Source of the DNA: Gari tellinella
Taxonomy: Eukaryota; Mollusca; Bivalvia; Cardiida; Psammobiidae
Assembly: GCA_922989275.2 (NCBI GenBank)
Contig: OV277859.1
Span: 90,082,198 to 90,146,197 of the forward strand
DNA length: 64,000 bases
Direction: 5' to 3'
A program made the translations under genes and the position numbers. Under the pieces are notes generated by a model. That model did not search any database and was not told where the DNA came from. It saw only the letters and a program-made list of their open reading frames with translations. Of the stretch, positions 91 to 63,010 are shown piece after piece; position 1 is the first letter of the stretch, and each line of letters opens with the position of its first letter.

Positions 91-3000
91 GTTATTAAAT
101 TGCAGATTTCAGTTTTTTGACAATACTTGAAATATTTTGTTTAAATTTATACAAATAAAGCTATTTACCCTTTTTTCCAGAATTTTAAACCTTCAATTTA
201 TGCTTCAAATCAAACTACTACTCATCAGAATCATCGCAAAGTGATATATTCGTTTAATTTCATAGATAAAATAAATAGGGCAGAAAATTAATTGGTTTTA
301 ATTAAGATCAATATTCAAACTTTAATTGTGAAATACAATTTTTCTTTCATTTTTACCCTCAGATGTATTCAAAACAGAATTTGTGCATTTAACAACAATC
401 TATTTAAATATTCTTTATATATGCTAAATTGGGGTCTTAATAATTTTCAGATTTGAGATGTTCTTTCCTCATACTAACTTACTTATTATTATTATATTCA
501 GCCGAGGCCAACTCATCAGTTGAAATGTGACTAAAAATCATAATTTTTTTTAATAGATATGTTTTTTGTACATAAAAATGTATAAATGTCAAATAATAGT
601 CTTGTAAGACATTGTGCCCCCGGTATTAAAGCAATTTTAGACAAAATCCATCCATTTATCTGTTTCATTAAGCATTAAAAGATATATCCAAAGTAGTATT
701 TCTTTAAGTACCTTGAAATTTGTTGATAGTAAGGACTTTTTTGGGGTAAACAGACACATTTTCAATTAGAAATTGTAAAAACAATGCCCCATTCTTTAAA
801 AAAAAAAAAATCAATTAGATTGAAATTTGTATCAAATTTTTTTTTTACGGGTTGTTCCTGATAAGTGAAATTCACATCAAAAATGAAAAGTGGTGGAAAA
901 ACCGAACTATCAGTTCTTTTTCTGACCATTTAGCCAAAATAATTTTATCTGTTTACCCCCCCAAAAGGTACATCAGTCATCACACCCAGGCTTTCTGTAT
1001 CTGCTCCCCTCTCTCTGGGGCTTCAAATTAGCCCATAAATGGCAGAAACCAATGTTATCAAACAAACTACCAGTTATTCCTCATTTTAGTGCATATAACT
1101 TAACTCATTACTCCATAAAAAACTTTTTTACTCATTGCTCCACAAAGAAAATATTTCAACTTTACCCAGCTGTGAATATGCATCATAAACTATATCCTAG
1201 CAGATGGTAGCTTAAAGCTGGCTGAAATCAAAGCAGAAGGAGCTTTATGATTTACTTTTAGTGTGCTTTAAGCATCTATCTTACTTCAATACTGGAAACA
1301 AGCTTTAAAATAGGGAAAAGGTTTAAGAGAGGGTAGAGAGTTTATGTGACCCATATTTTGAGGAAGGGGTAAATGAGTTTATAAAGCATTTGTTCCTTTC
1401 CATAGCCTGTTTCTAGTTATGAAGACGGGTAACCACTTAAAGCAGGCTGAAAGTAAACAAGAATGTGCATTAAGGCACATTCTGCTTTACTTTCAGTCTG
1501 CTCTTAGCTACCATATGCTAGAATACTGAAAATATTTCTGATGGTGCATGCATGACTGCATGAAATGCAACAAATTTCTTTAGTGGAGGAATGAATTAAA
1601 AGTGAGAAAGGGCATACTTTTGGGGTAATGAGCTTTACAGAGAAAATTGTTCCGAATATGCCTCATAACTTCATAAGCATGTTTTCCCTACACTTACACA
1701 GGGCTGCCATAATTTAATCTTGAAAATTCCTTAATTTTCCAAATTTTTCTAGCACAATTTCTTAAAGCAGGTTGAAAGAAAAACAGAATGCGCCTGGCGC
1801 ATTCTGCTTTACTTTCAACCTGTTTTAGCTACCATCTGCTAGGAATAAAATAGGACGATTTCAGAAAAAAACGGAGAAATGGCAGCCCTGCTTACATTCC
1901 TCAGGTAAATAGTTTGTGTTCTGACAACTTTTGTTATATCCTTGCAGAGGTTTAAGAAGACCCATGGCCCAGACTTTGAGAATCCGTTGGAGCTGAAGAA
2001 AGGAACGAGTAAGGAGAAGAGTGAGGAGAAAGAGGAGACGCCTGTCTGCGACTTCTGTACTCTGTCTGCCGCGACCAACACACAGGGCAAACCAGAGCCC
2101 CTCTTGGTCTGTATAGAGTGCAATGCTAAAGGTGAGAATTTTCTACCATTAGGGATTTAACCCTTACCCCCATAGAGGCGCCCTTTAGCGCATTTAATGT
2201 ATTCTTCTACTGAAGAAAATAGTTACACTTTACAATATCATGGAGAAAGGACAAATGGAGAGGTAACTTATACTCAAATCTGCATTTTCCCGAAAATGGT
2301 GTCGTCCGTTACCTGTATGTGCGATAACGCTTAATCGATCGATAATTCAACTGCACCGGTACGCCGATAGCGGGCTATCGAGTTTTTTATCGTGTTGAAT
2401 GGTTACCTACTGTTAGTTTAAGTTACATAAAATCCTTAATTTTCACCCGATTTTCATTATAATGGTCTTAAAAGAAGGCTAAGATATTTATCTTTCACTT
2501 GTAAAAATAACAGATTTTATTTTTTAAATTGATCAGTTTTATGGCGAGTTTAAAGAGTGGTTTCCAAATGAATTTGCCGATAAAAGGGAGCAAGCACTCG
2601 CGCATAAATATATCACGCCCCGTTACAAAACCTTTCATAAAACCCTCAATTTTCGACCGATTTTCAAAGAAATGGTCTTAAAGGAAAGCTTAGATACTTT
2701 TCTTTCAGTTGTTAAAATGCAAGTGTTTATTTTCGAAATCGACAAATTTTATGGCGAGTTAAAGTGCGATGGCCAAATGAAATAGTCGATAAACGAGAGC
2801 AGGCGATCGCGAAATATATACTACGTCCCGTTTAAAAAACTTGAATTTAGTCCATAATTTTCGTCCGATATATATATATATATTTTAAAAAAGGTCTTGA
2901 TATAAAGCCGTGACACTTATCTTTCGGTTGTAAAAATACCAGGGTTTTTCTTGAAGCGAAAAAAGTAATGATGACCTACAAAGGTTGCTGGCTAATGAAA

Positions 3001-6000
3001 TGACTAGACCAACTCGCGTAAGAAAAGAATTCCTTCCGTATAAAAACTCAAGCAAACTTCTAAACTTCTAAAAATGTGTTCATGCATTGTTACAATGTTC
3101 TACATGGAGGAAATATTTCCTTGGAGGCAAAAAAAAAATCCATTTTGTATGTAAAGAGACATTTGAAAGGAGTGCGCGTCAAACGGCCAAAATCCAAAAC
3201 GGCCAAAGTTGTAACTGTATTATTATGTCGTATGTGATCATTATTATTATTGAAAGGAAAATTAGAATTATTAACATATTACTTCAAAAAAATGAATTTA
3301 GGGTTAGTTTTACATCCAGACTAAAATATACATATTATCCGTCCCATTTCTATGATAGAGGTAACAGTTTGCATTATCTTCAGAAATTAATTGCAAACAT
3401 GATAACATGAGATCTCCGTTTCTTTCTGCTTTACTTATGTCTTATATAACGGAGTAAATTATAAAGCAGCCAATGCCTAAAGCAATCTATTTTAGTAACT
3501 GCTAAACTCTTTGCCTGCTGATCGCTAGGTCTATTCATCTGTAAACTACATGTCTGCCATATTACACATCACAAAGGAATGTGACACATTACGTAACCGT
3601 ACACAGATAGCAGGGCATTTATAAGCGTCATAAAACTCTCCCAGCATGAAGTCCATGCTTCTTGAAATGCCGATTATCTATGAAGTGCATGTTAGGGAAC
3701 TGGACACATGCAGGGGGTTGCCACTTTAATAAAAAAAGATCAATGCTACCCGTGCGTGTAACTTGAACCTGTGTTTTTGACTTCTGTAACCGCATGATGT
3801 TTATATATTATACAAATCACAAAAAATAAAGATAATAGAATTGAATTGGAAAAAAAACAACAACAAAAAAACCAACATCAATGCACCTGGTTTGGTTGAT
3901 GACTGGATTAACCCTCTCATTACTGAATACCAGTAACATGATGACTATTGCAATTGCAAACAGTTGTAATCCAGACCAGGCTGCAAAATGTCGGATTCAT
4001 AGAGTATGTCGCTTGAAATATAGTTTACCCCTTTTTCGAATTAAGCTCTTTATGACACATTTTACCTTTTCTCCGCATGAGGATCATCAGAGAGAGACAG
4101 ACAGACATTCATACAGAAAGATGGAGACAGAAAAGAAGAAGCGAGAGACTGACAGACAGAGATAAGAGAAAAACAGACAGACAGAGAGACAGTCACAAAG
4201 AGAAACAGAGACATAAATACAGACAGTGGCAGAGAAATATAGACACACACAAACTTCGTAGGTAAACGAAAAAATACGTTTTTCTCTCGTTTTCAAAACC
4301 TCACTAAACTATCAATTTATAAGCTATCGCCTCAAATTTTGTACTACGCGTAAGATAATGGTCGAATAAAACATCTGTATTAAAATTTATAACGATAAGA
4401 TGACATTAAAAGCATTTCTATTAACACCAAACTTCGTAGGTAAACGAAACAATACGTTTTTCTCTCATTTTCAAAACCTCACTTAACTAACAATTTATAA
4501 GCTATCGCCTCAAATTTTGTACTAGTCGTGAGATCATGGTTTAATAAAACATCTGTATTAAAATTTATAACGAAAAGATAGCATTAAAAGCATTTCTATT
4601 AACACCAAACTTTCGTAGGAAAAACGGAAAATACAGTACTGTACGTTTTCTCTCTCATTTTCACAAACTCACTAAACAAACAAATTATAAGCTATCGCCT
4701 CAAATTTTGTACTAGTCGTGAGATCATGGTCTAATAAAACATCTGTATTAAAATTTATAACGAAAAGATAACATTAAAAGCATTTCTATTAACGCCAAAA
4801 TTTCGGAAAAACGTTGTTTTCTAGCCGCCAGCGAGCGCCGCTGATTGAACGACACGATAAATCGCGAGCAGGCCGGATACTTCTCCATTTGTCCTTTCTC
4901 CATGACAATATTAAGAATATACACTTAACAAAGTTATGAGTATGTACCATAAGAACTATTTTCTATATTCATCAATAATTGATGATCATGATAGCTTAAA
5001 GCAGGATGAAAGTAAAAATATTTCAAAATGACCTGCTCCTTAATATCTTTCTGGATGAAGGAGAGAAAATAATTCTGAGGTATATGTATTGTTTTTGAAG
5101 GACCGGTGTTGTCAAAACATATAGATTTTGCAGCATAATGTTTGGGCTGTTTCTATTTTTGAAGACAGATGGTCACTTAAAGCAGGTTGAATGTATAGCA
5201 GAATGCTCCTTCAGGAGCATTCTGCTTTATATTCAACCTGCTTAAGTTATCATTTAAAAATGTACTGGAAATGTCTTCCGTAGTCTATGTTGAGGACTTC
5301 CAAGGTGGAGACAACTTTTCTTAACCCATTACCCCATAAATACGCCTTTTTACACCTATAATTTATTTCTCCTTTGAGAAAAACAGTTCAATTTTATATA
5401 ATAAATATGTTGCATAAGAAAAATTTCTATATCCTAGAAGATGGTAGCTTAAAGCAGGCTGAATGTAAAGCACAATGCGCCTTAAGGTGCCTGCTTTAAG
5501 TGGTCACATGATTTCAAAAACTAGAAACGGGTAATGGGTTAATGTAGAAACTATTAGAGTCGTTCAGTCATATAAATGGGGTAATGGTTTAACTGTCAAT
5601 AGTAGAGAAGGTAAGACACATTATCATTGTGCGATTGTATTTAAGCCCACCCGTCATGTATGGAATACAGCCCAGAGCTGGCTGAGCGAGCCCTCAACTC
5701 TCCCTGGCAGTGTATGGAGTGTAAGATGTGTGCTGTCTGCGGGCTGGATGGACTGGAAAACTCGGTGAGATATTCCTTTGGTATAAAGCCTTTTGGTAGT
5801 TTTAAGTCTTTACTTCAGTCTGTTTCTAGGTTTGAAGACAGGTGGTCACTTAAAGCCCTTTGTTGTGACAACACTGCTAGTTGATTCTAATGATTTGTTA
5901 TAAGTTACATAGGGATTGATGGAGAGATTTGTAGTTTTGAAGACAGGTGATCACTTAAAGCAGGTTGAAAGTGAAGCAGAATGCACCTTAAGGTGCATTC

Positions 6001-9000
6001 TGCTTTACTTTCAGCCTGCTTTAAGCAATCATCTACTAGAATCTATAAAATATTTCTTATATATATACATGTATTCATTACTGTATAAAGCAAGACTATT
6101 TTCTTCAATGAAGGAAATAATTTAAGGAGTAAAGATGTTTACCTATGGAATGGTTGGTTAAAGACATGTGTTGGATTAATGCTGGTGATTATGCATGGTG
6201 GAAATAATGCAGAACGCTCCAGTAGGAAACAGAGTTTGGCAGTCTTGGAGTGTTTGACAGAGCATTGTAATATTTCAAAAACAATTATATTATACAGTTA
6301 AAATTTCATTATAAATAAAGGGTTCCAGATAAGGGGGAGTAATCTGAACAAATCCAAATTTTTCTCACTTATACTGCACCAAATCCTATAGTGTTACTAC
6401 TCATTAGAATCATCTCTTTGAGACGATTCAAATGAGTAGTGCATGACACCATAGGGTTTAATGTAGAAATAAAGTTTTGAGTTTTTGAAATACTCCCCTT
6501 TTCTGGATCCCTGTAGTTCTTGCTCATCACATTTTCATTCAACTGAATGAGAAAAGAAATGCTGTCATTGGAGATTGTCTTTGAAATCATTGAATGTTCT
6601 GCAGGGCTCAAGAGAAGGGGAGTATTTTTGAAACTAAAATATCTATCTCTGCCCCAGATCCTGTGGTGTGACTACTCATTAGAATCGTCTCTTTGAGACG
6701 ATTCTAATGAGTAGTCCCACCATAGTATTAAGTACTGACATGAAGGAGAACATGCTGGAAAACTTGAGTGTGAGTCCCCTTATCTTTAGCCCTTAGTCTT
6801 GAAGATTTATGCAATTTTTAGATGAGATATTTATTTGCTTGTTGTTTTGAACAGGAACTAATTTATTTCCAGGTAAGAGGGAGTAATCTGAACAAATCCA
6901 ACATTTTCTCACTCAAACAGCACCAAATACTATGGTGTTACTACTCATTAGAATCGTCTCTTTGAGACAATTCTAATAAGTAGTCACACCATAGGGTTTA
7001 AAGCAGAAATATAGGTTTTAGTTTTTGAAATACTCCCCTTATCTGGAGCCCTGGGGCCCGTTTCATAAAACTTCGTACGACAGATGTTGTCGTAAGTTAG
7101 ATTATAAAAGTCTCAATTATTATTTATTTCTCCATCTAATCCTGTCTTGTGACATCTCTTTGGAATCGTCTTTTCAAGACGTTTCCAAACAAATGCCACA
7201 AGTCAAGATAAGCTAGAGAAATCAGAAATTAAATGTATTTTAAAGTTTTGACTTACGACTGTTTTTGTCGTACAAAGTTTTATGAAACGGGCCCCTGGTG
7301 ATTAGGTAGTCATTTGTTGATATTTGTTGTTGTTGTTGTACAGGAAGTTATGTTGTTTTGTGATGCCTGTGATAGAGGCTATCACATGACCTGCCACAGA
7401 CCACCGCTTACCTCAAAACCTAAAGGTAAGATAACTCATTAATCAACTCATACACCCCTCAAACTGGAAATGGATAATTCCAATTTCAAATTAAGTCTTT
7501 TCCATTTTTTACACATTAAAGGTTGATTTTCAAAATATATTATAAAATTACACAGTGTAGATCCTGATTAGAGGGTTCCTTTAGGAGACCTCTGATCAGG
7601 CAGAGTTGTAGATAAGCAGAGTATCCGAGTACTTACCAAATTGAAATCAGTGAAATACCCAATTATTTCAAAACTTAAATGGGTGACAGTACCCAACAAA
7701 AGCAAAGGAAACCCAATTATTTGAAAGGGATTGCGTAAAAACCAAACAAATACTCAATTGCTTTTTAATTTCATCGGGTTATCAACTGAACTTTTACTTT
7801 AGTGGAATGTGTGTAAACAAAAGTTGCATATAGAACTATGTAAACACTGAAAATCATTTTTAGACAGTTAACAACCATTCCCTGAATGCACTGTTGAAAG
7901 GACAAGGATAGGAAATCCAAGTTTATTTTCCTTTTGATACCCAATTATACTACAAATCATGGGGTTCTGGACTGTGGATACCCAAATGAATTAGAAACCG
8001 TGGGGTTGTGGTCAATGCAATACCCGATGAATTTTCAAAAAACCCCTATTCTTTTAAAGTCTGTGTATTGATACCCTATTCCAAGAAGAAGTTTATCTAC
8101 AACTCTGGATTAGGGTCTACACTGTTTGCATAGGACAAGTGTACTCTTCACAGGTAGACTAATTGTTTATGACGAGTAAACTCATTCCTAGGGTTGAATA
8201 TGATAATTGAGAAGGCTTTTCCCTTACTATCTCACACAAGTCAGTACAAACACCATTCCTAGTTCCAAAAATAGATGGATTTTCCAATTTTCAAACTTAA
8301 TATGGCTTGCTTGCTCATTCTGTAGAGTGTTAACGAAACAAGCCAAATGCCCTAGGTTCTACTTCGTGTTGAATTGCAACTATTTCACAATGTTTCATAC
8401 ATACATGATATTTGTACTTGCAAACTTTGGTTAAGTTTATATGCCCTGACATCTATGGATGTGGGAGGTATATAGCCTGGTTTTCGCCACCCTTAGCTAT
8501 ATTTTTCACGCATGCGCTTTCTGATGTAACATTTCTTACTAATTCACGGATCTAATTCTGAACTGAACCTTCAATAACACGAATATATACAAATAAAACT
8601 TATGAAATAAATACAAATGTAAATAACTGTACCATTTTTGGCCGGATTGAAAATGCGGTCTATAGATTGGCGAATGCCGTCCGTCCGTCCGTCTGTCCGT
8701 CCGTCCTCACTTTGGTTGACCTTTTTGTTAGTGTCAGTTTTAGCCAAAGCTTAAGTCCTACAGCAACCAAATTTGGCATGTACACTTATAGTGAGGTCAT
8801 CATCACATGCCATGGGTAACTAGGTCACTGTGACCTAGATTTCAAGGTCCAATGACTTAGAGAATTCTTGGTTAACCTTTTCGTTTGCGTCTCGGTTTAC
8901 CTTTTTGTTAGTGTCAGTTTTAGTCAAAGTTTAAGTCCTACAGCAACCAAATTTGGCATGTACAGTTGTAGTCAGGTCATCATCACATGCCATGGGTAAC

Positions 9001-12000: not shown

Positions 12001-15000
12001 ATTTTGGCATTACTGACAAACAGTGAAGACCCTGATCAGAGGGCTCCTTTCGGAGCCCTCTGATCTGGGTCTTCACTGTTTGCACAGGACAAGTGTATTA
12101 TTCACATGTACACTGTTTGAAATGACGCCTATATGCGGGACTAGGGTTCAAAGGGTTAACTCATTCATCCCTGAAACTTCAAATGGACTAGTTAGCTCAC
12201 CTGAGCCTTCGGCTCAGGATGAGCTATTGTGATACCATTCCGTCCGTCGTCCGTCGTCCGTCCACACTTTCAAACATCTCCTCAGAAACCACTGACCCGA
12301 TTTCAACCAAACTTTGTCAGAAGCATCAGTGACAAGGGGGAGCGAAATGTTGTTCAAAGATTTTGGCTAGAGTTATTCCCCTTGCTTTGGGACCAGATTT
12401 TCTAATATGACCGTATAGACAACTTTTAATGCATAAGAAAATCTTTAAAAATCTGCCTCTCAGAAACCAAAAGGCACAGACCTTTGATATTTGGTTTGTA
12501 TCATGACCTAATGATATTCTACCAAGATTGTTCAAATTTTGACCCTGGGGCCAAAAATGGCCCCGCCCCAGGGCTTATCAGTTTTTCTTAGGAAAACCTT
12601 TGAAAATCTTCTTCTCTGAAACTGTATGGCCTAGATCATTAATATTTGACATGTAGCTTTGCCTTATGATCCTCTACCTATATTGTTCAAATTATGACCC
12701 CCGGGTCAAAATTGGCCCCGCCCCCGGGCTTATCAGTTTTACATAGAGTTATATAGGAAAACCTTTAAATTTCTTCTTCTCTGAAACTGTGAGGCCTAGA
12801 TCTTTAAAATTTGACATATAGCTTTGCCTAATGGCCCTCTACCAAGATTGTTCAAATTATGACCCCTTGGCCAAAAATGGCCCCGCCCTTGGGCTTATCA
12901 GTTTTTCTTCAGAAAACCTTTAAAATTCTTCTTCTCTGAAACTGTATGGCCCAGATCATTTATATTTGAAATATAGCTTTGCCTTATAGTCCTCTTCCAT
13001 GATTGTTCAAATTATGACCCCCGGGTCAAAATTAGCCCCGCCCAGGGGCTTATCAGTTTTACAAAGAGTTATATAGGAAAATCTTTAAAAATCTTCTTAT
13101 CTGAAACTGTAAGGCCCAGATCTTTCAAATTTGACATGTAGCTTTGCCTTATGGTCTTCTACCAAGACTGTTCAGCTTATGGCCCCGCCCTTGGGCTTAT
13201 CAGTTTTTCATAGGAAAATCTTTAAAAATCTTCTTCCTGAAACTGTAAGGCCCAGATCATTTATATTTGAAATGTAGCTTTGCCTTATAGTCCTCTACCA
13301 AGTTTGTTCAAATTATGACCCCCGGGTCAAAATTGGCCTCGCCCCGGTGCTTATCAGTTTTACATAGACTTATATAGGAAAACCTTTAAATTTCTTCTTC
13401 TCTGAAACTGTAAGGCCCAGTTCTTTAATATTTGTCACATAGCTTTGCCTTGTGATCCTCTACCAACATTGTTCAAATAATGACCCCCGTGCCAAAAATG
13501 GCCCCACCCTCGACTTATTAGTTTTTCATAGGAAAACCTTTAAAAAAACTTCTTCTCTGAAACTGTAAGGCCCAGATCATTTATATTTGACCTGTAACTT
13601 TGCATTATGGTCCTCTACCAAGATTGTTAAAATTATGACCCTTTGATCAAATTTGGTCCTGCCCCAAGGCTTATCAGTTTTATATAGACTTATATAGGAA
13701 AAACCTTTAAAACTCTTTTTATAGCTATATATATCACGATATTGTTTTGCCCAGTCAGCTTAGGTGCAATGTTCTCAGGTGAGCGACTTGTGGGCCATGG
13801 CCCTCTTGTTTTCATTTTTGAAATATATTGTAAAAAGCAACCATAAATAGTAAAAAATAGACTAGACTTGATTGGAAACTGGATTTGTCCATTTAAAGTG
13901 TCAGGAGTGAATAACTGATACAAATACAATACAAATGCCTGCTTTCGTAAGTAGAGGCCCACATGTCTTTACATGTCCGAGTTCCAGGATTAAAGTACAT
14001 TCTGTTAAAAAAAAAATATAGCCACCGGCTGTAGTGGCCCAATGGTTAACACCTTGGACTACGGTACCAGGGGTCGTGAGTTCGATCCCCCGCCGGACCA
14101 GCGGTCTGACTAGGGGATTTTTTCTGATTCCCCGATGATGTACAGGAATGTTCTTGAGAAAGACATGTACCGCGAATTGCTCCTCTCCACCCAGGGGTTA
14201 AAATGGGTACCTGTGACGGGTCTGAGTCGGTACTGCGGCAGCATTTGAAAGCGCCATATGTTAGCAGTGCTCAATATTGTAGGCAAGATGGCTCGATGAT
14301 CAGGGGAGTATATGTACAGTCGGCTGAGCGGTCATTCGGACTGAAAGTAGACTTTAACTTGGTATATTACTTTTTAGCTCACCTGAGCCAAAGGCTCAAG
14401 GTGAGCTATTGGGATGGCCCTGTGTCCGTCGTCCGTCGTCGTGCGTCGTCCGTCGTCGTTAACAATTACTTCAAATGACATCTCCTCCTATACCGCTGAA
14501 CATATTTCAACCAAACTTTACAGAAATGTTCCTTAGGTCAAGCTCTTTCAGATTTGTTCAAAGAATTAAAAACAATGCAGAACTCTGGTTGCCATGGCAA
14601 CCAAAGTGAAAAAATAAGGAAATCTTAAAAAATCTTCTTGTAAAAAACTGCAAGGGCCAGAGCTTAGATATTTGGCACATAGCATCACCTACAGGTCCTC
14701 TATCAAGTTTGTTCAAATTATGCCCCTGGGGTCAAAATTGGCCCCGCCCCGGGGGTCACAGTTTTACATAGAGTTATATAGTGGAAATTTCAAATGTCTT
14801 CTTCTCTGACACTGATATGACCAGAGCTTTGATATTTGGCATGGTGACACTTCTAAATGTCCTTTACCTATTTTGTTCAAATGGTTCTGGTCAGTTGAAT
14901 ATCTAGGTCATAATTCAATATATGTATAGCAGACAGCAATTCAGCATTATAAGAGTTAGACCCTAGCCACATTTCCTACTGGCAGAGTTACATAACTGAA

Positions 15001-18000
15001 CTCAGGTCAGCTGAGGTTCACTATAACAGTAGCATATGGTGTTGTCTGCTACATTTTTTATGCCCCTTCAGTTGGGGGCATATTGTTTTTGTCTGTCTGT
15101 CTGCTTTTTTTTGTCCGTTTGTCGGTGGTCCAGTGGGTAGGACGCTCGACTAGGAAGCGAGAGGTTCCTGGTTCGAGCCCTGTCAGGATCACTGAAATTT
15201 TTCTGAGCAAAAAATTAACCCTACATTGCTCCACTTCACCCAGGTGATTTAAATGGGTACCTGAGAGGGAAATAAGTCAATGTGTCATGGCTGCTAGTAG
15301 CGCCGAATGTAAATGGCCGACTTATGACTCGATGAACAGGGAGGTAATTGTAAAAGTCGGCAGAATATGACATATAAATTTCAGACTTGATAAACCTATC
15401 ACCTTTACCTTTACCTTTACCTTTGTCAATTTGTTTGTCTGTCAGTCCACAACTTTAATCTTAGCCATAACTTTGTTAAAGGTAGAAACTTTATAACTTA
15501 GGTCATGTTCTGCAAAGGTCAATGTCATTTTTGAGTTATTTCCCAGTGTCATATTTTCTTGTCTTTGAGATAACTCCAGTTCTACTGATGTTAACCCATT
15601 ACCCCATACATATGCCTTTTTACGCATTTAATTTATTCCTCCTCTAAAGAGAATAATTCCTCTTTATACAGTCATAAAAATGTAAGATATAAGAAATGGT
15701 ATCTATATCTTAGTAGATGATAACTTAAAGCAGGTTGAAAGTAAAGCAGAATGGGCAATAAATAATCATATGGAAATACATGTAGCTTGATAAGAAGAAG
15801 TGTCATGGATAAGGGCCATAACTCTGCCAACAATATTTTTTTAAGTTATTCCAATTTGTCATGGGTTTTTTGTCTGGAAGATAATTCCATTTACAGCTAT
15901 AATAAAATGTTGTCTTGTCTATTACGCTAAGGCACAATGACCTCAGGTGAGCGAATTAAGGGCCATGGGCCTCTTGTTTATATTACAAACGCAATGCAGT
16001 TAAATGTAGAAAATGACAGATCCTTGAAAATGTTCTCGAATTAAACTTATCTCAGCAGCAAACAGCTTAAGGTTTGATCAGATGCCATGTTACCTGTTTA
16101 ACTGTTCGCAATTGAAATTACTGTTTAACCCTTTCCCCAATAGAAGCGCCTTTTAGCGGATATGATTTATTCATCCGCTGAAGAAAATAGTTCCAATTTA
16201 ATCAGTAATGAATTTGTATTAGTGGGAATGTTTTCTATATTAAAGCACATTATAGCTTAAAGCAGGCTGAAAGTAAAGCAGAATGCGCCCTAAGGCGCAT
16301 TCTGCTTTACTTTCAACCTGCTTTAAGTAGTCACCTATCTTAAGTACTAGAAATAGGCTATCAGGTAAAGGGTTAAGCCCAAACAGGTTTATTGAGAAGA
16401 ATGTGTTCTCCACTGGTTGTTCAGCAGCTTGCAGTGTTGTATAGATAGCCCACTACAATACTGATCTTATCGTTTCAGGTGGATCTAATGATACAGCATG
16501 TCTTCCTACCCCAAGTGCTTCTCCACGACCAGGTGACACATTTGAGTAAGTATGCTGAAGATCTAGTTTAACTCCTCTTTTTAGCTCACCTGGCACAAAG
16601 TGCTATTCTGATCGTGCTATGTCCGTCGTCAGTCGTCGTCCGGTCGTCCGTCGTCAACAATTTCTTTAAATGACATTTCCTCCTAAACTACTGGATGGAT
16701 TTTAACCAAACTTGGCAGAAATGATCCTTATATGGTCCTCTTTGAAATTTGTTCAAATGTTTCCGGTCCGTTGCATATCTAGGTCACAGGAGCTAAAAAT
16801 AGATCATTTCAATAAAAACTTAAAAAATCTTCTTCTCTGAAACCACAGTACCCTGAGCTTAGATATTTGGCACAAAGCATCATCTATAGGTCCTCTATCA
16901 AGATTGTTCAAATTATGTCCCTTTGGTCAAAAATGAACCCGCCGCGGGGGTCACAAATTTACATAGAGTTATAAAGTGAAATCTTCAAATCTCTTCTTCT
17001 CTGAAACTAATATAGCTAAGGCTTTGATATTTGGCATAGTGTAACTTCTAGAGGTATACTTTACCAATATTATTCAAAAGGTTCCGGTCCGTTGTATATC
17101 TAGGTCACAGGAGCTAAAAATAGATTTTTTTTAATAAAAAGCTTAAAAAATCTTCTCTTAAACTACAGTACCCTAAGCTTAGCTATTCTGCACTCAGCAT
17201 CATCCAATCAGCAATTGGCACAATCATATTGTCATAATTTCTCAGCTTTCCAAGATATGTTACATTTACATCAACGGTCCCAGGTGAGCGATTTAGGGCC
17301 GTATACGACTCTTGTTGTTTCTTTACTTTATTCCTGCATGGAGAACAATATTTCCAATTTGTACAGTCATGAATGTGCATAATAACAAGTAGTTTCTACA
17401 TCCTAGCAGATGAAAGCTTAAAGACATCTCCTGTCGACCTTTTGGTCATAACGCCTTGCCAGATTATTTACTGTCAATTTCCTTGCAAAAAGCATGGGTC
17501 TTGTGCATACTGAACCATTGAATCGTCTTATGTGAGACCGGACCTTTATATTTGATAGTTTGGTTAGAAATAACTATTGAAAATCACTAGAGCATGAGTA
17601 TAATCTGGCCCTCGACAGGGAAACTGAGATTGTATTGCACATGCTTTACAGTTACATTGACACCTCCAGAACAATATGCTGGTGGTCCCTCAATGGACTG
17701 AGGAAAAGTCTTTAAGGTGGGCTGAGAGTAAAGCTAAAGACAGACTGAAAGTAAAGCAGAATGTGCATTATATCAAAGACTTCGTTTAACTCCCCTTTTG
17801 GTGCCTTTAATTTATTCCTCCATGGATGAAAATATTTCGAATTGATACAGTTAGGAATGTGCATAATAAGAAAAAATAAAATCTTAGAAGATGATAGCTA
17901 AAAGCAGGCTGAAAGTAATGCAGAATGCACCTTAAGGTGCATTCTGCTTTGCTTTCAACCTGCTTTTAGTGTTCATCTGTTTTCAAAACTAGAAACCGGT

Positions 18001-20737: not shown

Positions 20738-20922
20738 CAGGGCTGCTATTTTTTCGGATTTTTCGCAAATCATCGTTTTTTATCCCAGCAGATTGTAGCT
20801 GAAAACAGGCTGAAAGTAAAGCAGAATGTGCCTTTAGGCGCATTCTGCTTTTCTTTCAACCTGATTTAAGTAAACATGCTTGAAAAATAGAAAATTTGGA
20901 AATCTTAGTTATGGCAGCCCTG
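20738..20922. mobile_element. A2 MITE, 6-bp TSD
   Basis: CAGGGCTGCTAT ... ATGGCAGCCCTG. Direct repeats GTTTGA at 20732-20737 and 20923-20928. Carries core A. Confidence 0.85.
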
Positions 20923-22157: not shown

Positions 22158-22513
22158 AGGGCACCCGATAAGGGGAGTATTTGAACAAATTAAATGTTTC
22201 TGCTGTCAAATGTTCAATACAAAATTTGAGAAAAAGGAGCAAACTACAGTTGTAAGCGGACAATATTGCAGCAGTGAAAGTGTGAGGCATAATTGTTTAG
22301 AAACAGCTGCAAACACTGTTCATGGCCCCATATAAGGGGAGTATTTCGAAAACTAAAATCTTCATTTCTGCATTAAACCCTATGGTGTTACTACTCATTA
22401 GAATCGTCTCGAAGAGACGATTCTAATGAGTAGCAACACCATAGGATTTTGTGCTGAAATAAGTGAGAAAATGTTGGATTTGTTCAGTTTACTCTCTCTT
22501 ATCTGGAGCACTG
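22158..22513. mobile_element. D MITE (22321-22513) beside a D fragment
   Basis: A D left end (GGGCACCCGATAAGGGGAG) at 22158 lacks a partner. A full D element at 22321-22513 has direct repeats ACTGTT at 22315-22320 and 22514-22519 and a perfect palindrome around GTCTC GAAG AGAC. Confidence 0.8.
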
Positions 22514-22799
22514 ACTGTTGTAAGATGGGAGTAATTCTTCAGAGGGCTATTGAAGGGAGGGAGCACTGTACAATCAGTGATAAGCTTCCCGTTTATGGTC
22601 AAAACTGTAAATAAGATAAATGGCTTATATACTCTTACGAGGGGTAATACATGATTATTTTCCAGCTTGAAGCCTGATCAGAACCTAGTAATTTTGAATC
22701 TGATTAGATTCGAACTGACACACATTTAAAGAATAGCTTTTCCAAGAATTTTTCATATTTTACCTTTTATTGCATTGCATTTACATTTCCAGGGTTCTA

Positions 22800-22982
22800 G
22801 ATAAGGGGAGTATTTCAAAAATTAAAATCTTTATTTCTGCTTTAAACCCTATGGTGTTACTACTCATTAGAATCGTCTCAAAGAGACGATTCTAATGAGT
22901 AGTAACACCATAGGATTTGGTGCCGAAATAAGTGAGAAAATGGTGGATTTGTTCAGTTTACTCCCTCTTATCTGGAACCCTG
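22800..22982. mobile_element. D MITE, 6-bp TSD
   Basis: CAGGGTTCTAGATAAGGGG ... CTTATCTGGAACCCTG with direct repeats CATTTC at 22794-22799 and 22983-22988. Perfect core D. Confidence 0.88.
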
Positions 22983-26861: not shown

Positions 26862-26931
26862 TTGAAAACAGTGTAGACCCAGATCAGACAGCTCCTGAAG
26901 GAGCTGTCTGCTCAGGGTCTATACTGTTTTC
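26862..26931. repeat. Core B palindrome alone
   Basis: Stem with CAGACAGCTCC TGAA GGAGCTGTCTG: both arms differ from the usual GAGGGCTCC in a way that keeps pairing. Confidence 0.75.
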
Positions 26932-27325: not shown

Positions 27326-27577
27326 TTAACCCAACACCCCATGAATACCCCTTTTTACACATTTAATTTATTCCTCCATCAAGGAAACTAATTCCATTTT
27401 ATAAAGTCATGAATATACTCCAAAAGAAACATTTTCTATATCTTAGCAGATTGTAACTTAAAGTAGACTGAAAGTAAAGCAGAATATGCCATAAGGCACA
27501 TTCTGCTTTACTTTCAACCTGGTTTAAGCGGTCGCCTACTTTCAATACCAGAAAAAGACAATAGGGTAATGGGTTAA
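27326..27577. mobile_element. A1 MITE
   Basis: TTAACCCAACACCCCATG to GGGTAATGGGTTAA. Core tip ATATGCC ATAA GGCACAT, one mismatch. Shares its right TTAA with the next element. Confidence 0.85.
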
Positions 27578-31490: not shown

Positions 31491-31716
31491 CAGTGGAGAA
31501 AACGTTATTCTTTCCCAATAAACGCGTTTTCGCTTAAACTATTATTTCCATTACAAACAGTTTGGAGCCAGATCAGACGCCGGGTAACCCGGCGTCTGAT
31601 CAGGCTCCAAACTGTTTGCCACTCAGACCATCATGAACAGTCATAAGTTGTCCTTTTCTATGTTTTAGTGCAATGCGTTTGCGTTTAAATGGGAAAGAAT
31701 AACGGTTTCTCCACTG
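31491..31716. mobile_element. C2 MITE, TA target, core C
   Basis: CAGTGGAGAAAACGTTATTC ... ATAACGGTTTCTCCACTG with TA on both sides. Perfect core C with tip GCCGGG TAA CCCGGC. Confidence 0.88.
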
Positions 31717-35273: not shown

Positions 35274-35469
35274 CAGTAAAACCTCTCCATAACGACCACT
35301 AGCCTAAATTGTGTTAATTTTCAGGTGACTACGTAAAGTAAGGTAAACGTTAAACAGATAGCTCCTTAAGGAGCTGTCTGTTTTACGTTTATCTTGCTTT
35401 AAGCTGTCACCTGATTATCATGCAGCCAATTACCCTTCTTCTTAGTGGTCGTAATAGAGAGATTAACTG
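35274..35469. mobile_element. A3 MITE, TA target
   Basis: CAGTAAAACCTCTCCATAAC ... CGTAATAGAGAGATTAACTG, TA both sides. Perfect palindrome around AGATAGCTCC TTAA GGAGCTGTCT (one mismatch). Confidence 0.82.
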
Positions 35470-40072: not shown

Positions 40073-40280
40073 CAGTAAAACCTCTCCATTACGATCACAA
40101 GATCGAAGGCTAATTCATTGCATATAGACAGGGCATGTGGCAGCATAAAGCAATGTGACAGTAAAACAGAAAGCTCCTAAAGGAGCTTTCTGTTTTACTA
40201 TCGCATTGATTTAAGCATTCACCTGTTGTAAACATCTTATAATTAACACACGTTTGTTATCGAAACAGAGAGGTGTTACT
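40073..40280. mobile_element. A3 MITE
   Basis: CAGTAAAACCTCTCCATTAC ... AGAGAGGTGTTACTG. Perfect core around AGCTCC TAAA GGAGCT. Confidence 0.75.
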
Positions 40281-40479
40281 GCAGTGTATGTCAAAATTAA
40301 ATTTGCCATTTAAGCTTAGGCTTATTGACCTGGAACGAAAATATTGTGAGAACATATCAATTTTTATAATGTTGACAGTGTGGTTAACGTTTAGATTGTC
40401 AACAAATATGTTACTATGGCAACTATATTACGGCATGACTAGTTCTTCTTCAGATTGAAAATTTGCGCTTTACTTCTGT

Positions 40480-41278: not shown

Positions 41279-41524
41279 CAGTGGAGAATCTGTTATTCTT
41301 TCCCGTTTAAACGCAAACGTACGCAAACGCAATGCACTAAAACGTAGAAAAGAACAACTTTTGGACAATTCTGATAATTCTTGTTTATCTTGGTGGCAAA
41401 CAGTTTGGAGCCTGATCAGACGCCGGGTTACCCGGTGTCTGATCTGGCTCCAAACTGTTTGCACTGCAAATAATAGTTTTAGCGTAAACGCGTTTATTGG
41501 GAAAGAATAACAGATTCTCCACTG
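41279..41524. mobile_element. C2 MITE, 246 bp, TA target
   Basis: CAGTGGAGAATCTGTTATTC ... GAATAACAGATTCTCCACTG, flanked by TA. Core C tip GCCGGG TTA CCCGGT. About six differences by eye from the inverted copy at 52499-52744. Confidence 0.9.
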
Positions 41525-45128: not shown

Positions 45129-48100
45129 TAGTAGAGGGCATTTAGCGTCAAAAACACAAATAAAGGAACTAATTTGTACAGAAATGATTTTTGTGCCCTC
45201 ATATGCTACGACATGAACCGAATAACAGAAAAAAAGTCCCAAGAAATCACACGATGCGAAATATGATTTTTGGGGTAAAATGGCTGAAATAATAGGTAAA
45301 AGCACGATTTTTTGGGATTTCCAAACTGCGATCGTAGAAATCAATATAAAAGCCCGAAATTTACAGGCTAGACAAATATTCATGTAAACTATGGAATGGT
45401 ACTTGTTAAGATATGTAAAATTTTCAAAAAACTAATTTTTGGGGTGAAATTGTCAAAATATTAAACCAAAATCACAAATTTTGAAAAATTCAAACAGACC
45501 GTGACATCTAAAATCAAATGAAGGAAATGGTGCACAGAGTTGATTTATATGTTATAATTTGCTTAAATATGTTCCAAATAACAGACAAAAAGTCTAGGAA
45601 AATCTAATAATGAAAACTATGATTTTTTGGTAAAATGGTTGAAATAATAACTGAAATCGCTAATTTTGGGGATTTCCCTGCTGTGATCGAGGATATCGAT
45701 ATAAAAGCTCCAAATCTACAGGCTAGACAACTGTTCGTGTCAGCTGTGGAAAAGTACTTGTTAAGATAAATAAAATTTTCAAAAAACTGATATTTGGGGT
45801 GAAATAATCAAAATATTAAACCAAAATCACAAATTTTGAGAATTTCAAACAGACCCTGACATCAAAAAGGAAATAAAGGAAATGGTGCACAGAGTTGATT
45901 TATATGTTAATTTTTGCTTAAATTTGTTCCAAATGATAGACAAAAAGTCTAGGAAAATCAAACAATGCAAACTATGTTTTTTGGGTAAAATGGTTGAAAT
46001 AATAACTTAAATCGCTAATTTTGGGGATTTCCCTGCTGTGATCGAGAATATCGATATAAAAGCTCGCAATCTACAGGCTAGACAAATGTTGATGTCAGTT
46101 TTGGAATGGTTCTTGTTAAGATAAATAAAACTTTCAAAAAACTGATTTTTGGGGTGAAATTGTCAAAATATTAAACCAAAATCTCATATGTTATGGATTT
46201 CAAACAGACCCTAACATCAAAAAGGAAATAAAGGAAATGGTGCACAGAGTTGATTTATATGATATTATTTGCTTAAATATGTACCAAATAACAGACAAAA
46301 GTCTCGGAAAATCAAACTATGCAAACTATGATTTTGGGTAAAATGGTTGAAATAATAACTTAAATCGCTAATTTTTGGGATTTCCCTTCTGTGATCGAGG
46401 ATATCAATATAAAAGCTCCAAATCTACAGTATGCACACATATTCATGTCTATCATGGAATGGTTCTAGGTAGGATGAACACAACTTAAAACAAAAGATTA
46501 TTGGGGTAAAAGGGTAAAATTATTCAACCAAAATTTCATATTTTTGGGATTGTTGACAGATTTGACATTGAAATCAAAATAAAGGAAAATATGCACAGAA
46601 TTGATTTATCAGCAATTATATGTTTCAATGTGTACCAAATAACAGACAAATAATGTAGGGAAATCAAAGAATCCGAAATATGATTTTGGGTAAAATGGTT
46701 GAAATAATAACTGAAAAAGCTATTTTTGGGAATTTCCCTTCTGTGACCATGGATATCAATATAAAAACTCCAAATATCCAGGCTAGACAAATATTCATGT
46801 CTACTTCAGAATGGTCCTTGTTAGGATAAATGAAGGTTTCAAAAAACTATTTTTCGGGGTAAAATTGTCAAAATATTAAACCAAAATCATCAATTCTTGT
46901 TTGTAAAATTATCTAGGAAAATCCAACAAAGCCAAATATAAATTTTGGGGTAAACTGATTAAACAAATTAATGTAAATGCAAGTTTTTGGAAATTTCACA
47001 CTATGGACTTAGACGAGAATATAGAAGCTACAAATTTACAGGTAAGGTACATATTACTGTGTACTGTAGCCTTGTACTTATTAGGATGAACTAAGGTTTA
47101 AAAAATCTGATGGGGGGGTTAAAAATGAAAAATGTAAATACATGTAGTTAAATGAAAACCCATGTCTTTTTCACTTCACTATACTGTGACCTTAGACATG
47201 AAACTATACGTTCAAGGTCTATAACTTACACACATACACCATTTTAATGTAGCTTAGTTCAAGGGAAGATAAATCAAAGAGTTTAATTGATTAAAAGTTT
47301 TAAGTAAAAATGGTAAACTTAAATAGGGCACATTTTTAATGTATATATTATGACCTTTAATATTTTTAGAAAAGCTCCAAATCCGTTTGAAAGTACATTG
47401 AGTACATTGTTACAGCAATATAACATGAATATAAAACTTAAAAATATAGTTAAGACAAATATATGAATGGAGACTTTTATAATTAAGGATAACTACTATT
47501 TTGAATTTGTTTTGAAATTCATTACTAAGGTCAAACAACTAAGTCTGATATGTCACAGGGTGGCCGAGTCCATTTATAAGGGAGATCAGCATTTCAGATG
47601 TCCTCGTGTCAAGTTTTAAAGGAAAAGGTTCAGTTATATGTACAAACAATAAGCGAATTAGTTATTGGAAAAAATAACGTAGGCTTGACACAGTCCTTTC
47701 AAATGAGACCTGCAACTAGTTTATCCAAAATTACACATAACAAGCTCAAAAATATATTATAGTGATTTGGAAAAATACACCCCCTCCACCAAAAAAAGAA
47801 ATCAAAACATAAACGAACAATTTTCTGCATGGTTGGATTTTCTGCACGATACTGGTTGGTTCTGGTGTTGGTTGGAAACAAATAGACATGAGCTATCCTG
47901 TACTTTGAGCTGTCATAATGGAATCTGACAACTGTATGAAATATCAGCAAATCATAGTATACGCACATTTAAATTTGGGCATACATCGTAATTAATGTAA
48001 TTAATTGATCTAACAGTGCTTGCTATATATACATGTATATGAAATAACTGATAGTATATATATCACCAGGTCAATAACAGTCAATATTCTTTTTGTGGTG

Positions 48101-51400: not shown

Positions 51401-51603
51401 TAGTAAAATCTCTCTATTACGACCACTTTAAAGACGGTTAATCGATTGTGAAAAACCGGTGACAGCTTAAACCTATGTAACAGTAAAATAGAAAGCTCCC
51501 GAAGGAGCTTTCCGTTTTACCGTCACATTGCTTTAAGTAGTCACCTGTCTTAAACACCTGCTAATTAACACAATCTAGTGGTCATAATAGAGAGGTTTTC
51601 CTG
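51401..51603. mobile_element. A3 MITE
   Basis: TAGTAAAATCTCTCTATTAC ... ATAGAGAGGTTTTCCTG. Core AGCTCC CGAA GGAGCT. Confidence 0.75.
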
Positions 51604-52498: not shown

Positions 52499-52744
52499 CA
52501 GTGGATAATCTGTTATTCTTTCCCAATAAACGCGTTTACGCTAAAACTATTATTTGCAGTGCAAACAGTTTGGAGCCAGATCAGACGCCGGGTAACCCGG
52601 CGTCTGATCAGGCTCCAAACTGTTTGCCACCAAGATAAACATGAAATATCAGAATTGTCCAAAAGTTGTTCTTTTCTACGTTTTAGCGCTTTGCGTTTGC
52701 GTACGTTTGCGTTTAAACGGGAAAGAATAACAGATTCTCCACTG
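52499..52744. mobile_element. C2 MITE, 246 bp, TA target
   Basis: CAGTGGATAATCTGTTATTC ... GAATAACAGATTCTCCACTG. Core C perfect. Near-identical to the reverse of 41279-41524. Confidence 0.9.
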
Positions 52745-53640: not shown

Positions 53641-53807
53641 ACGGCCTTTAGCACAAACGCAATTTAAGAGAATGGATAACTGTGTCTAGAAATAAAATCC
53701 AAGTGACAACTACAGTCAAGGGACATAATTATTCGTCACCCTGCCTAAAAGTTGCTTATTATATCGGTTTTTCTCAAAAGTTCATTGGAATTAAAACTCT
53801 AAATAGT

Positions 53808-54116
53808 TTTACATTCCTAACGGTGGCATACTTATAACAGACACATATTTTTACATTCCTGATGGTCACAGACTTATAACGGACACATAGTGTTACACTC
53901 CCAGTGGTCACATACTTATAACGGACACATGTTTTTACATACCTGATTGTCTCATTTTTATAACAGACACATTTATTTAACATTCCTGATGGTCAAATAC
54001 TTATAACGGACACAACGTTTTACATTCCTATTGGTCACATACTTTTAACAGACACATAGTTGTACATTTCTGATGGTCACATACTTATAACAGACACATG
54101 GTTTTACTTTCCTACG
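53808..54116. repeat. 43-bp tandem repeat, about seven units
   Basis: TTTACATTCC starts recur at about 53808, 53850, 53892, 53934, 53977, 54020, 54062 and 54105, each with GGTCACATACTTATAAC and GACACAT. Confidence 0.85.
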
Positions 54117-54599
54117 TGTGCTCGTAGACACTCTTTAGATATATTCTGAAAGAAACTGTTGAACATTTCACATCTTGGATTATTGCAGATGACGAAACAA
54201 TGCCATAGTGTTTAGAAGGCTAAGAAGCACGCTAGTTAACATTCCTGATGATCACACATTTATATCGGACACGACATTTGAATCTCCCGAAGACTTCTAC
54301 TAGTCGCATCAAATGAGACTCACAATATGGAACACCTTAATATTATATTATGAATATAGTTGTGTGATCTCGTATGGATTTGCATAGTTAATATTCTTAG
54401 TCAGAAACCCAACACTTAGTATTTCCTTTCTTTTATGGACCTATAGTATATTATTTGCATAATCAAAACACGGCAGGAAATTTGGGCTGTTATTAGGGAA
54501 AATATCCCTGAAATTACTGAAAGATGCATTTTGTCTATACAAGATAAGTTGGCATCCCGGTATAAATCTTACCATTTCATCTGGAGTTTTGAAAAATGT

Positions 54600-57139: not shown

Positions 57140-57431
57140 ATGGCGGGTGGAGAAGGAAACGAGTCGAGGGAAAAGTCACGTGGCAGTAAAGTTAAGGAAA
57201 TCCTCATCGCCAATCTTTTCGTGGTCTTCATGGTCATCGCGATTATAATAGGCGTGGCCGTTGGCCTGGGGGTCAGAAGGCTGGACGGCTGGGAGTATTA
57301 TCAGAAGAGGAAGATCTTCTACCTGAGATTCCCCGGGGACCTATTGCTGAACATGCTGAAGATGTTGATACTGCCACTGATTGTGTCCAGTCTCATATCG
57401 TCATTGGCTTCATTGGATTCACGAGCATCAG
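57140..57431 (+). CDS. SLC1-family (EAAT-like) transporter, first coding exon
   Basis: ATG in good context (AACAATGG) begins 97 codons plus one base; donor CATCAG|GTAAAG. A charged N-terminal tail (1-20) precedes TM1 (about 22-46, hydrophobic with GVAVGLGVR) and the FPGDLLLNMLKMLILPLIV segment of TM2 (64-82), highly characteristic of the glutamate/neutral amino acid transporter family. These transporters move Glu/Asp or neutral amino acids across the plasma membrane with Na+. The TM2 wording fits EAAT better than ASCT, but the substrate cannot be set from two exons. An acceptor-like pyrimidine tract ending CAG at 57131-57133, six bases before the ATG, suggests a spliced 5' UTR. Confidence 0.93.
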
Positions 57432-59862: not shown

Positions 59863-59884
59863 GTACATAAGCGATGTTACAGTC

Positions 59885-60137: not shown

Positions 60138-60341
60138 CAGTAGAACCTCTCTATTACGACCACTAAATTGTGTCAAATATAGTCGTTTACGACAGGTGAC
60201 TGCTTAAAATAATGTGATATTGAAACAGAAAGTTCATACAAGAGCTTTCGATTTCACTTTCACATTGCTTCAAGTTGTCACCTGTATTCTATACAGATAA
60301 TTAGCCTTCTTTTTAGTGGTCGTAATAGGGAGGTTCTACTG
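60138..60341. mobile_element. A3 MITE, TA target
   Basis: CAGTAGAACCTCTCTATTAC ... ATAGGGAGGTTCTACTG with TA on both sides. The core is somewhat worn. Confidence 0.85.
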
Positions 60342-60774: not shown

Positions 60775-61426
60775 AACGGACAATGGCAGTGACACAGACG
60801 CTTTTCTTGCTTTGAAGCGACTTTAAATTCGAGCATATGTTAAGAAAATATTTGAGACCATAGCTATAGCTAAAACAACCCGAAGCTTGAAAATACACTA
60901 ATGTAAATGTACTCCAAACTATTCGCAATTGACAAAAACGTGTCCATGTGAAGGAAACTGGTAAATTTTGATCGTCTGTAGGTGAACTATTTGCTAGTAT
61001 TTTATATACGTAATGATTTATATTATTTTATATACGTATGATTTATATTATTATTTCCCGTTCAATCGATACGAAACGGAATGCAAAAACATGTAGAAAT
61101 TAAAAGGTTTTTGACAATGTTGAAGTTTTTTTTAACTGAGTGGCAAAATATGTGTGGCGAGATCAAACACCGGTATCTGATCTGGTTCCTAAGTATTTTC
61201 AATTAGCATGGCAGCTATGGAACAAACACATCAATTAGAACAAAATTACGTCTACCCCGCTGTATATTATATCTAAATCAGAAATAAGGAGACAGAAAAC
61301 CAAATGATGTCATAACAAATAACTTGTAAATGTAAATACACTAAATAAATCATTTGGTGTTCAGTCTGTCTCTTTAAGTTTAAAACGATGTCACACCTTA
61401 TACTTTATAGTAATTTGCATTTCAAC

Positions 61427-61616
61427 AGGGCTCCAGATAAGGGGAGCTTTTCAAAAACTAAATCTTAATTTCTGCACAAACCCTATGATGTCACTAATAA
61501 TTAGAATCGTCTCTTCGAGACGATTCTAATGAGTAGTAACACCATAGAGTTTGGTGCTGAAATGAGTGATAAAATGTTGGATTTGTTTGGAAAACTGACT
61601 CTTATCTGTAGCCCTG
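61427..61616. mobile_element. D MITE
   Basis: CAGGGCTCCAGATAAGGGG ... CTTATCTGTAGCCCTG. Perfect palindrome around GTCTC TTC GAGAC. No clear TSD here. Confidence 0.8.
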
Positions 61617-62065: not shown

Positions 62066-62197
62066 CCATATCTAAACCATTATTTTTACATAAACTTGCA
62101 TTGCATTACACGGTCTGTTTAGCATACAGTTCGACGCATTATCAATTTGTATAGAAAAATTGAAAAGACTGCAAGTCTCTTCAGCTAATTCTTGTAG

Positions 62198-62423: not shown

Positions 62424-62467
62424 AAAAATAATTTACCCAGCATTACCGGTTTATAGCTGGCTATGTA

Positions 62468-63010
62468 CACTCAGTGCAAAAAGAAACGCACATCGTGCTC
62501 AGACGCAGATTAGGATATATTGTTTTTGAGGAAAATTAGAAAAGAAAGACCATATCTCAAGATTTATTTAATTCTGCAACAAGTTCAGAAAAAATACTCA
62601 AAAAACATTGTGCTGCCTTTTAACCATTTCCCTCCTAATGACGCCAAAAGCGTTTGCAAACAGTTTGGATCCTGATCAGACGCCGCGTAACGCGGCGTCT
62701 GATCAGGATCCAGACTGTTTGACACTCTTATCGATTTCATTTAAGTCATTCTACATTGAATTTTACTTTGAAAAGATCTTGCAAACAACAAAATTGAAGC
62801 AGACGACAATAAGACGATGAAGGGGTAAAAACCTCACGATTAACTTGGCAGCGTAAGAATTAACTACAGCTTGTTTAAAATACCGCACCGATTAGTGCAG
62901 GTTGTGATGCTACCAATTCAATAAAGATTTAATAATAATTCACAAATACGTTCCTTCTACATAAAAATAAGATTGTGATACAAAATGTGCGTTTCTTATT
63001 GTACTGAGTG
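62468..63010. mobile_element. Mariner-like TIR element with C1 nested inside
   Basis: Starts CACTCAGTGCAAAAAGAAAC and ends, inverted, CACTCAGTACAATAAGAAAC; TA at 62466-62467 and 63011-63012. It is 543 bp including a 244-bp C1 insertion. No transposase. Confidence 0.82.
62620..62863. mobile_element. C1 MITE nested in the mariner-like element
   Basis: TTAACCATTTCCCTCC ... CAGCGTAAGAATTAA. Perfect core C with tip GCCGCG TAA CGCGGC. Confidence 0.85.

Follow-up and report, generated by a model that had tools for sequence, protein, structure and literature searches.

The closest described relatives of the elements treated here are the CMITE families I-VI of the coral Acropora, piggyBac/TTAA MITEs with different TIRs and a common 75-bp interior (Wang et al. 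2010, PMC2872659). In the accessible part of that paper, the interior is better conserved between families than the TIRs and its origin is given as unknown, a new element named CMITE-IN is described as formed by CMITE insertion, the authors suggest a role in transposition for the conserved interior, and about 1600 copies are estimated for A. millepora (PMC2872659). MITE families that have unrelated TIRs but an interior better conserved between them are also found in the bivalve Gari tellinella. However, all the CMITE families described in the accessible text, as well as CMITE-IN, are TTAA-ended, whereas the families reported here extend to A2, with 6-bp TSDs, to C2 and C3, with TA, and to A3, mostly with TA. 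New with respect to CMITEs are the palindromic interior (palindrom*, hairpin, stem and "secondary structure" are absent from the text of PMC2872659), the compensating changes between families (compensatory changes are not mentioned in its accessible part), at least three end chemistries and a far higher copy number (more than 10^5). The first-pass annotation of this DNA, which knew of no standard MITE family with such a construction, was too strong on this point, since the coral CMITEs, as far as their accessible description goes, are a partial precedent.

In common with piggyBac-type MITEs, the families have TTAA flanks, TTAACCC-type ends and a piggyBac transposase in the genome; here, in contrast, a palindrome is present in 27 of 35 complete elements and is common to other end types. 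A conserved middle joined to unrelated heads and tails is characteristic of several SINEs (CORE-, V- and Deu-SINEs), but these are copied from RNA, whereas the elements described here are DNA transposons and their shared middle is a DNA palindrome. The T2-MITE/Kolobok elements of Xenopus are likewise prevalent MITEs with a TTAA target; they differ in their terminal AGGRR motif, and neither palindrom* nor hairpin appears in the accessible text (PMC6004289). The accessible text of the Mercenaria genome paper (PMC8905726) contains none of palindrom*, hairpin or "inverted repeat". A literature search, with most subscription journals outside it, returned no report of cores shared across end chemistries. 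The hairpin in question, of 65-98 bp, recurs with different end chemistries, remains symmetric from family to family despite its changing sequence and varies least in multiplying lineages, and it bears on what lets MITEs become more numerous than the autonomous elements on which they depend.

Element types, ends and target sites

The material consists of a 64-kb stretch of DNA (the window) and 20 sampled 10-kb stretches, 264 kb in total, from a genome of 1.6 Gb in 80 contigs. Core A, a 72-bp palindrome, is hosted by TTAA-ended A1 elements, by A2 elements with CAGGGCTGCC ends and 6-bp TSDs and, in a diverged form, by A3 elements. Core C is hosted by TTAA-ended C1 and by C2 and C3, both flanked by TA. 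The ends of A1 are TTAACCCATTACCCCATA...TATGGGGTAATGGGTTAA (consensus of 252 bp from 32 copies), and those of B1 and C1 are also of the TTAACYC type; all three carry TTAA at both ends and a CCC-type terminal motif, as piggyBac/TTAA MITEs do, with individual copies degraded. The ends of C2 are TA followed by CAGTGGAG. A3, mostly TA-flanked and ending in CAGTARAACCTCTC, and C3, about 350 bp long and ending in TA and CAGYGCTCCCTCTCTACAACGAC, both show a TA target duplication and a CAGT-type terminal repeat, degraded in some copies; we take their TIRs to be of the pogo/Tigger-like (Tc1-mariner) type. Further copies of A2 are flanked by TGAAAG, CGGTAT and CTAAAT. The typical target duplication of hAT elements is 8 bp, and A2 was considered as a hAT MITE and rejected because its TSDs are of 6 bp.

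The insertion types read in the first-pass annotation hold for the A2 copies at 1699 and 20738, where the TSDs are CTTACA and GTTTGA, and for the related cores B and C in TTAA-ended B1/C1 and TA-flanked C2, the C2 copies at 31491, 41279 and 52499 all being TA/TA. The A1 copies at 16125 and 27326 do have TTAACCC...GGGTTAA ends, while in the one at 5910 a TTAACC end can still be recognised on just one of the two sides. Likewise, the TA flanks ascribed to three A3 copies are present at 35274 and 60138 (TA/TA) but not at 40073 (TG/CA), and a further copy at 51401 is flanked by TA/CA. The features are listed in Table 1.

Table 1. Elements and palindromic cores located in the window
Feature	Position	Strand	Core
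A1 element, TTAACCC...GGGTTAA	16125..16376	+	core A 16256-16327
A1 element, TTAACCC...GGGTTAA	27326..27577	+	core A 27457-27528
Core A of A1 copy with one degraded end	5954..6025	-	
A2 element, CAGGGCTGCCAT ends, TSD CTTACA (6 bp)	1699..1890	-	core A 1761-1829
A2 element, 6-bp TSD GTTTGA	20738..20922	+	core A 20799-20870
A3 element, CAGTAAAACCTCTC ends, TA flanks	35274..35469	+	A3 core 35332-35403
A3 element, TG/CA flanks	40073..40281	-	A3 core 40144-40215
A3 element, TA flanks	60138..60341	+	A3 core 60203-60274
A3 element, additional, degraded ends, TA/CA	51401..51603	-	A3 core 51466-51537
B1 element, TTAACTC...GGGTTAA	11910..12159	+	core B 12017-12082
C2 element, TA-CAGTGGAG ends	31491..31716	+	core C 31554-31618
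C2 element	41279..41524	-	core C 41397-41461
C2 element	52499..52744	+	core C 52562-52626
Core C of C1 (TTAACC-type) element	62657..62721	+	
Core D palindrome, in element whose copies end like CAGGGCTCCAGATAAG	22364..22460	+	
Core E palindrome, related to core D	7126..7222	+	
Core B palindrome, no recognised arms, sole free-core candidate	26865..26930	+	

A larger unrelated repeat, A4, with three copies (window 15591, L012:6785 and L020:1707), contains the A1 left arm and half of core A; it is a nested capture with a broken core, still amplified. D elements and the related E palindromes lie at window positions 6300-7000, 19740-19930, 22320-22980 and 61424-61616; D elements, with a palindrome of about 100 bp, end like CAGGGCTCCAGATAAG, and these ends resemble the CAGGGCT of A2. 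Coding exons of a PHD-finger protein and a sodium:dicarboxylate symporter were observed at about 1947-2133, 5645-5760 and 57140-57430 of the window, so that some of the MITEs are probably intronic. Tandem arrays occupy 12433-13807 (unit of about 320 bp), 45234-46982 (about 355 bp) and 53765-54155 (about 42 bp).

Abundance of the palindromes

Near-perfect palindromes number 138 in the 264 kb of window and samples, against none in a 114-kb first-order Markov control. Cores of the A, A3, B or C type make up 105 of them, and about 18 of the other 33 are, by eye, of types D and E. Core A has 27 matches in the window at E<=1e-3. Genome-wide, an 18-mer of the core-A arm, with at most one mismatch, gives 206,310 + 207,202 = 413,512 matches (control 6 + 5), where one complete core can match once on each strand. 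Junction patterns with at most two mismatches, all with 0 matches in the control, give 50,528 + 50,364 = 100,892 for C2, 16,667 + 16,911 = 33,578 for C3, and 7,164 + 7,208 for A2, although the A1 sequence differs there by about three bases, so that A1 copies may be among the latter (the first 100 matches listed, which cover contig C1 and reach into contig C2, are exact). The A3 end pattern, at one mismatch, gives 19,759 + 19,609 with two ends per element (control 0). When TTAA elements were surveyed by their ends only, 32 of the 35 complete ones had an A, B or C core match, and a palindrome score of at least 12 was reached in 27, compared with 2 of 35 random intervals.

Exact C2 junctions on contig C1, at about 1.8-6.0 Mb, are mostly on the + strand among the matches listed, while the genome-wide total is balanced; this is perhaps a segmental array.

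Relatedness and base pairing of the cores

Related core halves are found between A1 and A3, between B and C1/C2/C3, and between D and E, with scores that none of 2000 shuffles reach. A chance likeness of GC-rich palindromes is ruled out by these shuffles together with the Markov control. A common origin of A with B/C is not established, the best scores being reached by 21 of 2000 shuffles (A3-B) and 25 of 2000 (A1-C3), uncorrected for 28 comparisons. The relationship suggested earlier between core D and the centre of G elements stands as that between D and E, on the assumption that E is what had been called G. Consensus cores are identical at 56-71 of 72 positions among A1/A2/A3 and at 55-60 of 65 among the C types, with unrelated TIRs. 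The outer 24 bp are common to B and C cores, with 20-21 identical, and two copies (L022:4868 and L004:1671) combine, by eye, B outer arms with a C tip. Folded as DNA, consensus-like A, A3, B and C cores form single hairpins, with z values of -13 to -18 against dinucleotide shuffles.

Two-sided Watson-Crick changes are more frequent than expected under independence: 47 v 21.3 in A, 27 v 12.8 in A3, 20 v 8.8 in B and 82 v 24.5 in C, in copies without indels and at least 75% identical (54 of 99, 16 of 21, 26 of 34 and 42 of 72, respectively) whose relatedness is uncontrolled. Between the A2 and A3 consensus cores, eight pairs differ at both bases and no pair at a single base; the four comparisons of C-type consensus cores give, for both sides and one side, 2+2, 2+1, 4+1 and 3+1. 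Mismatches in 33 of the 36 pairs of core A are G-T in 32 cases, A-C in 32 and others in 39, without strand bias. This balance holds only with pair 12 left out: its mismatches go in one direction, many A1 copies having C-A there (G-U on the other strand). One strand may have a role at the RNA level.

Arm remnants of TTAA elements

A2 retains 42 bp of the A1 right arm (z 14, 0 of 300 shuffles); to the left of its core, 14 of 16 bp match A1, a match of little weight when aligned freely (z 2.1, 15 of 300). Similarly, C3 retains about 105 bp of the C1 right arm (C1a: z 16, 0 of 300), with no recognisable C1 sequence in its left arm. We read both A2 and C3 as TTAA elements captured within another element and trimmed mainly one-sidedly near the core.

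The core of C2 is identical to that of C1a at 59 of 65 positions, and its right arm has no homology to C1 (z 0.2, reached by 82 of 200 permutations; positive control C3-C1 z 10.5, 0 of 200). A right-arm homology between them first noted by eye was not significant in two alignment tests and was discarded. Right arms of B1 and C1 show no similarity either (z 0.1). The sets in these right-arm comparisons had 24 rows for C1, of which at least one is misoriented and two are C3-like, 8 of 10 rows for C2, to which two typed older copies were added, and 8 of 12 rows for B1. For the left arms of C1 and C2, one of three comparisons (C1b) reached z 2.4 (6 of 300). A3 shares with A1 56 of the 72 bp of the core and, symmetrically on either side of it, about 18-26 further aligned bp (z 3.9 and 3.6; 2 and 3 of 300). 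The sequence common to C1, C2 and B1 elements ends at or near CAAACAG...CTGTTTG. What C2 has in common with TTAA elements is the palindrome only, and the same is nearly true of A3; both would have been built around a TTAA MITE of which the palindrome was retained.

One core with several kinds of ends had been read as module exchange. The sharing is real, and capture is evident in A2 and C3, where the donor arm came along. Descent from a single ancestor by drift of the ends, named at the same time as the condition that would refute this reading, may apply among the TTAA families, but not between the TTAA, TA and 6-bp-TSD families.

Free cores, core-less elements and deletions

Among 140 cores with E<1e-9, both arms were recognised in 114, one arm in 21 and none in 5, in a lenient test (BLAST E 0.05, 18 nt) in which five library families come from single sampled copies that match themselves. 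No target duplication was noted around the five armless cores. By eye, four of these are in element-like contexts: two lie close to ends of the TTAAC/GTTAA type, A1 arm remnants flank another (L028), and a fourth (L019) is diverged and A1-like, which leaves the core at window 26865-26930 as the one free-core candidate. No convincing free hairpin was found among these 140 good cores, and the earlier suggestion that the hairpin itself is mobile is not borne out.

Left-arm matches of A1 number 96, of which 14 end early; core A is present in 59 of the other 82 and absent from 23, about half of which start with core remnants. Among 90 right-arm matches, core A is present in 70 and absent in 12, and 8 start late. 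Both complete core-less C2 copies, considered as an empty progenitor, turned out on alignment to be internal palindrome deletions and not empty sites, and two of the four single-ended core-less C2 copies look, by eye, like palindrome deletions. A2, A3, C2 and C3 have more gaps in the core than in the inner arms (e.g. 0.096 v 0.017 in C2), though B1 does not; filters requiring a near-complete core favour intact cores. The palindrome seems to be deletion-prone, yet kept in multiplying lineages. The central TTAA of core A was also considered as an insertion hot spot, but the interruptions are too few for such a claim (4 against 52 intact centres, with a background of 151 element ends among 3069 TTAA sites).

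Variation in cores and arms

A1 copies were found by their left arm, and most of the core and the right arm were then required (36 of 64 copies). Private changes per site are 0.023 in the core, 0.020 in the left arm and 0.021 in the right arm; variants present in at least three copies are at 0.036 in the core, 0.129 and 0.117 in the left and right arms, and 0.096 and 0.046 in the end 12-mers. The arms hold about 3.2-3.6 times as many shared variants per site as the core, whose value does not exceed that of the transposon ends. Expressed as columns, 19 of 72 in the core and 97 of 156 in the arms hold shared variants (Fisher p 5e-7; the counts were recovered from rounded fractions). Under less strict filtering (45 of 64 copies), shared variants are at 0.047 in the core versus 0.139 and 0.133 in the arms, and private ones at 0.021 versus 0.015. 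With CpG masked (34 of 64 copies), divergence from the consensus is 0.059 in the core and 0.166 and 0.143 in the arms. Over 554 of 561 A1 pairs, the core distance averages 0.097 to 0.125 while the left-arm distance rises from 0.18 to 0.43; in the seven closest pairs the core distance averages 0.04-0.06.

In the other families, variants in at least two copies are, for core and inner arms,.062/.170 in A3,.035/.075 in B1,.003/.039 in C2,.019/.057 in C3 and.037/.072 in A2. Copies of C2 were selected by end and left-arm motifs, those of A2 by ends, right-arm motif and a length >200, those of A3 by ends and a motif bordering the core, and those of B1 and C3 by the core. In six of six families, whatever the ends, the core has fewer shared variants per site than the inner arms, by a factor of about 1.9 to 14. 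Relative to the TIR of the same family, the core is below in A1, B1, C2 and C3 and slightly above in A2 and A3. For A2, A3, B1, C2 and C3, the core has fewer private changes per site than the inner arms as well, a deficit that, with 6-13 copies each, cannot be separated from lineage variants; neutrality after insertion is for this reason read from A1 only. Mantel correlations in A1 are r 0.08 (p 0.24) between left arm and core, 0.21 (p 0.06) between right arm and core, and 0.17 (p 0.04) between left and right arms, and the weak correlation of core and arms could also come from core exchange. A comparison of core and arm trees in A1 had too little signal and was set aside.

Possible role of the palindrome

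The palindromes would reside mainly in TTAA-ended MITEs with piggyBac-like ends, and other DNA elements would repeatedly have been built around such a MITE because these are so common; A2 and C3 still show the donor arm, while C2 and A3 would have kept essentially the palindrome alone. Among the multiplying lineages of every host type examined, the palindrome is less variable than the inner arms, and between families it differs mostly by paired substitutions that preserve base pairing; an inserted A1 copy decays in its core about as fast as elsewhere. The palindrome has probably been selected during amplification, whichever the transposase, and we lean, with some reserve, towards regarding it as a selected cis-acting module of abundant MITEs during that phase, independent of transposase type. 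Repeated selection for the hairpin, one of the options raised in the first-pass annotation, is best supported as the reason for its retention, in view of the lower shared variation and the paired changes.

The conserved cores could instead be passengers, with common TTAA MITEs simply nested in other elements without selection and the conservation being an artefact of sampling or subfamilies. Such plain capture agrees with the TTAA-element arms in A2 and C3, with the half core trapped in the three copies of A4 and with the frequency of core deletions. It accounts for A2 and C3 but not for C2, whose right arms lack C1 homology although 59 of 65 core positions are identical to C1a; moreover, shared variation is lower in the core in all six families, including C2 and A2, which were chosen by ends and arm motifs, and we regard this explanation as unlikely. 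Self-correction by hairpin template switching might also bring the two arms of each palindrome into agreement, and gene conversion among the very numerous copies might homogenise cores, at no benefit to the element, as the two-sided changes and the weak core-arm congruence in A1 could indicate. Unbiased self-correction, however, should leave the per-site substitution rate undiminished, because half of the mutations would be restored and half copied to both arms, yet the core varies less than the inner arms throughout; self-correction accounts for the symmetry, not for the slowdown. Gene conversion may occur within A1, but across families it is not strong, as diagnostic pairs are kept family by family, and homogenisation of this kind is quite improbable as the explanation.

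It is very hard to credit that the hairpin is a mobile unit inserting into other elements. Although the common sequence of C1, C2 and B1 stops at or near the same heptamers and one core in the window lacks recognised arms, at least one arm is recognised, by the lenient test, in 135 of the 140 good cores, the two complete core-less C2 copies are internal deletions, and A2 and C3 contain sequence beyond the hairpin.

If selection during amplification is the correct reading, the palindrome might extrude as a DNA cruciform and act as a hinge that lets the ends of a stiff element of 200-250 bp meet, or it might instead keep the element accessible; as the mechanism, hinge or accessibility is rather doubtful, and the one-way mismatches of pair 12 make a DNA hinge slightly less likely. 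The sharing of cores, the arm remnants in A2 and C3 and their lack in C2 right arms, the lower shared variation and the paired changes are observed; selection at amplification, the level of structure concerned (DNA or RNA) and any mechanism are what we infer. Tentatively, the palindrome could be a portable, transposase-independent amplification booster that any short DNA transposon can acquire, which would explain the success of piggyBac-like, pogo-like and 6-bp-TSD MITEs in this genome, each with some 10^4 to 10^5 copies. A portable hairpin makes the idea that internal sequences may help transposition testable with different helpers.

piggyBac transposases in the genome

The genome has 86 DDE_Tnp_1_7 matches, several with intact frames. 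One young piggyBac family has TTAACCCTTTCGGCGCC ends, and piggyBac frames with TTAACCCTTT ends are present; among 12 piggyBac loci inspected, an autonomous element with the ends of A1 itself was not established. Core matches occur in 8 of these 12 loci, beside or inside the transposon. Palindromes with a score of at least 14 are absent from three of the four intact-frame loci (stretches L031, L033 and L038), and L029 has an AT-rich one; therefore, piggyBac transposition in itself does not require the core. The L029 and L030 loci are 98.75% alike, and upstream of the transposase match each has a TTAACCC-ended stretch of 200 bp that contains a weak B-like core.
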